Assembly (NCBI GenBank): GCA_009869945.1
Contig: WIXG01000395.1
Location: 1-64,000 of the forward strand
Direction of reading: 5' to 3'
Length of the DNA: 64,000 nt
From: Mesaphorura yosii
Lineage: Eukaryota > Arthropoda > Collembola > Poduromorpha > Tullbergiidae
A model generated the notes under the pieces. It did not search any database and had not been told where the DNA came from. It saw nothing but the letters and a program-made list of their open reading frames with translations. The position numbers and the translations under genes were made by a program. This document shows, in pieces, positions 24,675 to 25,513 of this stretch (the stretch's first letter is position 1; every line of letters starts with the position of its first letter).

Positions 24675-24691
24675 GCCTCCGTGGCGCAATT

Positions 24692-24745
<54 letters not shown>

Positions 24746-24748
24746 GCG
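24675..24748 (+). tRNA. tRNA-Asn (GTT)
   Basis: The cloverleaf reads directly. The acceptor GCCTCCG pairs with CGGGGGC (one G-U), followed by discriminator G. The anticodon arm is TCGGC-TGTTAAC-CGA with anticodon GTT. The T arm is GGTGG-TTCAAGC-CCACC. Its length of 74 bases is normal, and CCA is not encoded. A T5 run at 24754-24758 gives the Pol III stop. Confidence 0.95.
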
Positions 24749-24753
24749 AACAA

Positions 24754-24758
24754 TTTTT
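24754..24758 (+). terminator. Pol III terminator of tRNA-Asn
   Basis: A run of five T lies six bases after the mature 3' end. Confidence 0.8.
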
Positions 24759-24855
24759 GCACCCGCATTTTGCACCCACTTTTCGCGTCATTTTCAGGGA
24801 ACAAAATGAAACGAGCTCCCAAAACAGAACGCAGTGCGCCACCAAAAAGAATTGC

Positions 24856-24861
24856 AAAAAA
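24856..24861 (-). terminator. Pol III terminator of tRNA-Gly
   Basis: A run of six T on the minus strand lies eight bases beyond the tRNA-Gly 3' end. Confidence 0.8.
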
Positions 24862-24868
24862 CATCTCG

Positions 24869-24958
24869 TGCATTGTCCGGGAATCGAACCCGGGTCGCCC
24901 GCGCTCTGCTCGCTCGTGACTTTGGCAGGCGAGCATTCTACCACTGAACCAACAATGC
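24869..24958 (-). tRNA. tRNA-Gly (GCC) with a 19-nt intron
   Basis: The acceptor GCATTGT pairs perfectly with ACAATGC and the discriminator is A. The D-arm part GGTTCAGTGGTAGAAT and the T arm CCGGG-TTCGATT-CCCGG are canonical for tRNA-Gly. The 5' half of the anticodon arm is CTCGC-CTGCCA and the 3' half is C-GCGGG. Between them, after position 37, lie 19 extra bases (24922 down to 24904, AAGTCACGAGCGAGCAGAG). Removing them leaves a standard 71-base tRNA-Gly(GCC). The insert sits exactly at the canonical 37/38 intron site. Its GAGCGAGC could pair with the GCTCGC of the anticodon stem in the precursor. All stems are intact and a terminator follows, so I judge it an intron-bearing functional gene. 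An insertion-damaged copy is less likely. Confidence 0.88.
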
Positions 24959-25441: not shown

Positions 25442-25513
25442 AGGTCCTACCGAGATTTGAACTCGGATCGTTGGATTCAGAGTCCAAAGTGCTAACCATT
25501 ACACCATAGGACC
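25442..25513 (-). tRNA. tRNA-Gln (CTG)
   Basis: The acceptor GGTCCTA pairs with TAGGACC and the discriminator is T. The anticodon arm is TTGGA-CTCTGAA-TCCAA with anticodon CTG. The T arm is CCGAG-TTCAAAT-CTCGG. Its length of 72 bases and its sequence fit eukaryotic tRNA-Gln. It lies on the same strand as tRNA-Gly, about 480 bases away. Confidence 0.95.

Follow-up and report, generated by a model that had tools for sequence, protein, structure and literature searches.

Short introns between positions 37 and 38 of nuclear tRNA genes form a textbook class, and the classic set of animal tRNAs that carry them consists of Tyr, Ile(UAU) and Leu(CAA). To our knowledge, tRNA-Gly(GCC) has no intron in the well-studied animals, and a search of the open-access literature turned up no animal Gly(GCC) with an intron, a result that is weak evidence of absence.

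An anticodon-intron pair is required for 3′ cleavage by the human splicing endonuclease TSEN (PMC8479045), is strictly placed in human pre-tRNAs (PMC10539383), and is C-G in 16 of 16 Drosophila intronic tRNAs (PMC6614914); the last of these also reports that the animal/archaeal ligation route gives circular introns in flies. A 2014 review (PMC4090602) gives lengths of 6–133 nt for eukaryotic tRNA introns, calls the route of their gain unresolved, and states that isodecoder genes tend to be uniformly intron-bearing or uniformly intronless, mixed sets being supposed to have separate origins. The same review describes lineage-specific introns, read as gains, in Kluyveromyces lactis Gly(UCC) and Lachancea thermotolerans Ala(UGC), tRNAs that have intronless genes in relatives, and cites Fujishima 2010 for transposition of tRNA introns in the Thermoproteales.

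The intron described here lies in a window of 64,000 nucleotides, the whole stretch analysed, from contig WIXG01000395.1 of the collembolan Mesaphorura yosii. It resembles the animal Tyr-GUA, Leu-CAA and Ile-UAU introns, which are processed by TSEN and RtcB, in its 37/38 position, short length, anticodon-intron pair, and 3-nt bulge, and the same genome has introns in all three of those families; it differs from them in its host, Gly(GCC), and in its presence in one of the three copies found. As in the two yeast cases, a lineage-specific intron is read as a gain; however, the K. lactis Gly(UCC) gene seems to derive from a bacterial Glu tRNA (PMC4090602), whereas here the intron-bearing and intronless copies of Gly(GCC) share identical exons. 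As in the Thermoproteales, similar intron ends recur across tRNAs; those introns, as outlined in the same source, are archaeal, large in scale, and of bulge-helix-bulge type, while the likeness here is short, and the splice-site helix imposes part of it. We estimate a probability of about 0.8 that this tRNA-Gly(GCC) locus works as a Pol III gene and that its intron is a canonical eukaryotic one, spliced by endonuclease; its transcription, cleavage by TSEN, and ligation are inferred.

The tRNA-Gly(GCC) locus and its intronless copies

Positions 24869–24958 of the window (minus strand) matched the Rfam tRNA family RF00005 with 55.5 bits (E 3.2e-09). With introns disallowed, ARAGORN reported an undefined tRNA; with introns allowed it reported Gly(gcc), placing the intron after base 37 and giving its length as 8 nt. 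Reading by hand placed a 19-nt intron, AAGTCACGAGCGAGCAGAG, at 24922–24904 (minus strand), between A37 and C38, and this placement was unique, as a shift of one base in either direction alters the exons. The spliced product is 71 nt long with four intact stems: acceptor 7/7, D 4/4 with one G-U, anticodon 5/5 with one U-G, and T 5/5. A run of six T residues (24861–24856, minus strand) follows a 7-nt trailer. These results bore out the sequence-only reading, which had described 19 extra bases after position 37, intact stems with a perfect acceptor, and a terminator. The features of the locus, all on the minus strand, are:

24923..24958, 5′ exon of tRNA-Gly(GCC), positions 1–37, 36 nt (RF00005, ARAGORN; same as in the intronless C23 gene)
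24926–24924, anticodon GCC, within the 5′ exon
24904..24922, 19-nt intron AAGTCACGAGCGAGCAGAG between positions 37 and 38 (ARAGORN, hand reading, intronless copies)
24869..24903, 3′ exon, positions 38–73, 35 nt (RF00005, ARAGORN; same as in the C23 gene)
24925..24928, C32-U33-G34-C35, exon strand of the 4-bp anticodon-intron helix (folding, pairing count)
24906..24909, GCAG, intron strand of the helix, positions −6 to −3, G(−3) pairing with C32 (folding, pairing count)
24903..24905, 3-nt bulge A-G/C38 with the 3′ splice site at the slash (folding, pairing count)
24853..24861, Pol III terminator T6 with GCA after it (context common to 51/73 tRNA genes collected from the genome)

When the whole window was scanned with cmscan at gathering scores, three tRNAs and nothing else were found. 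A tRNA-Asn gene (24675–24748, plus strand) is convergent with the Gly gene at a distance of 120 bp, and a tRNA-Gln gene (25442–25513, minus strand) lies upstream of it. Convergent tRNA pairs 120–180 bp apart, among those listed, were C118:147806–148168 (Tyr-Tyr), C276:43450–43753 (Lys-Lys), and the present C395:24675–24958 (Asn-Gly). In 51 of 73 tRNA genes collected from the genome the first downstream run of four or more T residues was directly followed by GCA, and such a sequence, often repeated, occurred within 60 nt of 61 of the 73. In the window GCA followed 31 of 806 T runs, counting both strands and including the flanks of its own tRNAs; two of these sites lie past the Gly gene (24853–24861, minus strand) and past the Asn gene (24754–24761, plus strand). 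This looks like a lineage-specific context for Pol III termination. A genome search for U6, made with this terminator context in view and with 48 of 7217 candidates scored, gave one copy, an apparent retro-pseudogene with an A-rich tail. A search for COX1 gave no match. A Pfam scan of 10 window open reading frames gave one match, a piece of CDC5L/Cef1; for another CDC5L piece, the human protein gave the highest score of the 12 solved sequences that matched, and by this the organism looks animal-like.

The genome searched (G000) comprises 93.0 Mb in 1127 contigs, the window being on contig C395. A 26-base pattern covering the D arm and anticodon, with up to three mismatches allowed, found three Gly(GCC) genes, and a DNA similarity search returned the same three. 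The intronless gene at G000:C23:273115–273185 is identical to the spliced window gene at 71/71 bases, and the intronless gene at C347:73152–73222 differs solely at pair 7:66, through a compensated swap. The same pattern search found no second intron-bearing Gly(GCC). When 1.5-kb flanks of the three loci were compared, similarity was confined to the gene and the immediate terminator region, with short hits elsewhere of E 0.028 or weaker. We rejected an origin by segmental duplication, since genes with non-homologous flanks do not resemble recent segmental duplicates.

The sequence-only reading had proposed that all Gly(GCC) genes be listed by presence of an intron, and that many intact intronless copies with no second intron copy would suggest a pseudogene made by insertion. 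On such a reading the locus would be a tRNA-Gly copy broken by a chance 19-bp insertion at 37/38. The pattern and similarity searches gave one gene with an intron and two without, and so far agree with such an insertion. The genome, however, also yielded nine other intron-bearing tRNA genes, and the introns of Tyr and Cys have the same 3′ end as that of Gly.

Introns of other tRNA genes and splice-site geometry

At least 10 intron-bearing tRNA genes, with nine distinct introns, were found in the genome: the window Gly(GCC) gene and the following.

Tyr(GUA), three genes, on C118 (two) and C1038
Cys(GCA), one gene with an 11-nt intron, L053, G000:C112:5716–5798, minus strand
Val(AAC), two genes with introns of 12 and 16 nt, L085 at C56:6119 and L088 at C98:29312
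Ile(UAU), two genes, on C53 and C726
Leu(CAA), one gene, L110, region of C334:8511, minus strand

The Tyr, Ile(UAU), and Leu(CAA) introns provided positive controls; those of Cys, Val, and Gly lie beyond the classic set. The counts are lower bounds: patterns running from A-box to B-box pass over genes whose boxes differ (it took a D-arm pattern to find the two Ile(UAU) genes), the census is one of classes other than His and the TAGT A-box class (Asp, usual Val), and the RF00005 genome search, which gave at least 63 tRNAs from 63 of 4105 candidates scored, did not include the window Gly gene. Boundaries were set by hand where ARAGORN gave an 8-nt intron (Gly), an intron after 35 (Cys), after 40 (Val on C56), or after 41 (Ile on C53), no intron (Val on C98), or Ala (Ile on C726). 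Both Val(AAC) genes have the D arm TGGCGTAGTTGGTTATCGCG, which differs from the D arm of the intronless Val(CAC) gene.

Several matches were left out of the intron count. Pattern matches on C419, C5, C70, C35, C278, C850, and C190 were not tRNAs by ARAGORN. An odd tRNA-like gene at C254:23682–23761 (L065/L072), called Tyr with an intron at 34, was also omitted. Another odd gene, at C269:11185–11257 (L067), was called Ser(GGA) and has no long variable arm; both are possibly pseudogenes or of foreign origin.

In the constrained fold of the Gly precursor, GCAG of the intron makes four of four Watson-Crick pairs with C32-U33-G34-C35 and is followed by the 3-nt bulge AG/C38; the anticodon arm alone gave the bulge-helix-loop that was expected, with −12.0 kcal/mol. 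This arrangement is common to the Gly, Cys, and Tyr precursors, in which C32-U33-G34-Y35 pairs with GCAG of the intron, followed by a bulge A-R/N38 and then the 5-bp anticodon stem, with four Watson-Crick pairs in Gly and Cys and three plus a G-U in Tyr. The introns of Cys and of the three Tyr genes end in AGCAGA followed by A or G, matching the 3′ end of the Gly intron. Both Ile introns made 4/4 helix pairs and both Val introns 3/4. The Leu(CAA) intron made 0/4 pairs with the ARAGORN boundary (28 nt) and 4/4 with a redrawn one (37 nt); we moved its 3′ boundary because TCTGG occurs twice and the move restored the helix. With that boundary, the pair between pyrimidine 32 and purine −3 and the 3-nt bulge were present in 9/9 distinct introns (10 genes); before it was moved, the pair was present in 8/9. 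The helix may count for less than the single anticodon-intron pair, because in extracts of yeast and Xenopus a double strand between anticodon loop and intron was no prerequisite for splicing, according to the 2014 review (PMC4090602).

The Gly intron thus fits the eukaryotic nuclear introns spliced by TSEN in its 37/38 site, its length (19 nt, within 6–133 nt), its C32-G(−3) pair and 3-nt bulge, the intact mature tRNA, and the Pol III terminator. Two other classes were rejected. An archaeal-type intron would have a bulge-helix-bulge, whereas Gly has a 3′ bulge only, its 5′ site lying in the loop (bulge-helix-loop, constrained fold); and a group I self-splicing intron has a ribozyme core that takes up at least about 100 nt, as against 19 nt here.

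These features bear directly on whether the insert broke the gene by chance. Four pairs with bases 32–35 are expected from 4 of the 256 possible four-mers, and landing at one of about 70 junctions with those four pairs has a chance of roughly 2 in 10,000, as a rough estimate; the Gly insert does not look random. The exons, identical to an intact gene at 71/71 bases, show no decay, the insert lies exactly at the canonical site, its 3′ motif is common to the Tyr and Cys introns, and the terminator is of the usual type. A chance insertion would account for the two intact intronless copies with no second intron-bearing Gly found, and for a predicted precursor fold that is not a cloverleaf; we nevertheless judge a pseudogene improbable and favor a working gene with a spliced intron.

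Precursor folding and a proposed splicing route

The intron sequence GCGAGCA is the reverse complement of the exon sequence TGCTCGC, and the sequence-only reading had suggested from such pairing that the intron could create an alternative precursor fold. RNAfold gave −34.3 kcal/mol for a misfold of the Gly precursor and −31.4 kcal/mol for the cloverleaf with intron, a gap of 2.9 kcal/mol, and the pairing of GAGCGAGC was present in the minimum-energy fold. Such a fold could in principle regulate maturation by opposing GAGCGAGC to the anticodon stem. Equal gaps, however, arose by chance: among 1000 introns that were random except for the native last six bases (GCAGAG) the mean gap was 2.79, 42% being at or above the native value, and among 1000 in which the first 13 bases had been shuffled it was 2.41, with 38% at or above that value. 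The intronless Gly gene had a still larger gap, 3.8 kcal/mol. The predicted probability of the anticodon stem was 0.001 in the Gly precursor and likewise 0.001 in the intronless Gly tRNA, as against 0.67–0.996 in the Tyr and Cys precursors. As the random, shuffled, and intronless gaps are comparable, we attribute the misfold signal to the Gly tRNA body and the energy model and not to the Gly intron. The complementary bases are real; the fold as a special feature did not hold up, and a regulatory role for it is very improbable.

We propose instead the route usual for spliced introns of this kind. The precursor would retain the tRNA body, with GCAG of the intron paired to C32-U33-G34-C35 so as to lengthen the anticodon stem across the 3-nt bulge; TSEN would cut after A37 and within the bulge (AG/C38), and the ligase RtcB would join the exons, yielding the same tRNA as the intronless gene does. 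Six matches to RtcB (PF01139) were found on contig C152, jointly spanning positions 15–426 with small gaps. In-frame stops lie inside three of the six and, judging by the lengths of these matches, are probably due to short introns. Given these matches, the exons are probably joined by the animal/archaeal route. The sole Cys(GCA) gene found, with up to three mismatches to a 29-base query, bears an intron; TSEN subunits are thereby implied, such introns are probably spliced here, and necessarily so if the assembly and that search are complete, and the decoding of Cys codons may require tRNA splicing. The window Gly gene, on the other hand, could be dispensable, because two intronless copies exist.

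Origin of the intron

Among the copies found, Gly(GCC) was the only set with both intron-bearing and intronless members, which suggests a recent intron gain at one of the three Gly(GCC) genes. One gain is the simpler account because the alternative requires two losses, and the identity of the exons indicates that the gain or loss, or the last conversion, was recent. In the alternative, the intron is old and ancestral in Gly(GCC) and has disappeared from two of the three copies, for instance through conversion with a spliced copy. A set of one intron-bearing gene and two intronless ones fits either gain or loss, identical exons without flank homology fit gene conversion, and apparent losses are frequent in yeasts, according to the 2014 review (PMC4090602). 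Two losses are nevertheless needed where one gain would do, and the other intron-bearing sets had no intronless member among the copies found, in a census that is a lower bound. That Gly(GCC) is not known to carry an intron in the well-studied animals also speaks against an ancestral intron. We consider an old intron a serious but unlikely alternative to recent gain.

If the intron was gained, one candidate source is an intron from a tRNA-Tyr gene elsewhere in this genome. A stretch of 11 bases with a single gap, AGCG-AGCAGAG, is common to the Gly and Tyr (C118) introns, and their local similarity score, the best of 8 comparisons, was reached in 35 of 5000 shuffles. The anticodon loops of Tyr, Cys, and Gly(GCC) all start C32-U33-G34-Y35, so that an intron ending in GCAG would be splice-competent at once in any of the three. 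Because this shared loop sequence also dictates GCAG, the likeness is suggestive only, and we hold copying from Tyr as a tentative and rather unlikely proposal. If true, it would show an intron spread between tRNA families, seen beside its empty site.

Whatever the source, Gly(GCC) presents an exon-identical pair of intron-bearing and intronless genes within one isodecoder, accompanied in the genome by other introns that share this 3′ end. Such a pair offers a before-and-after view of tRNA intron gain or loss and makes gain versus loss testable in close relatives. It also suggests a rule of compatibility, by which tRNAs with C32-U33-G34-Y35 loops can accept GCAG introns.
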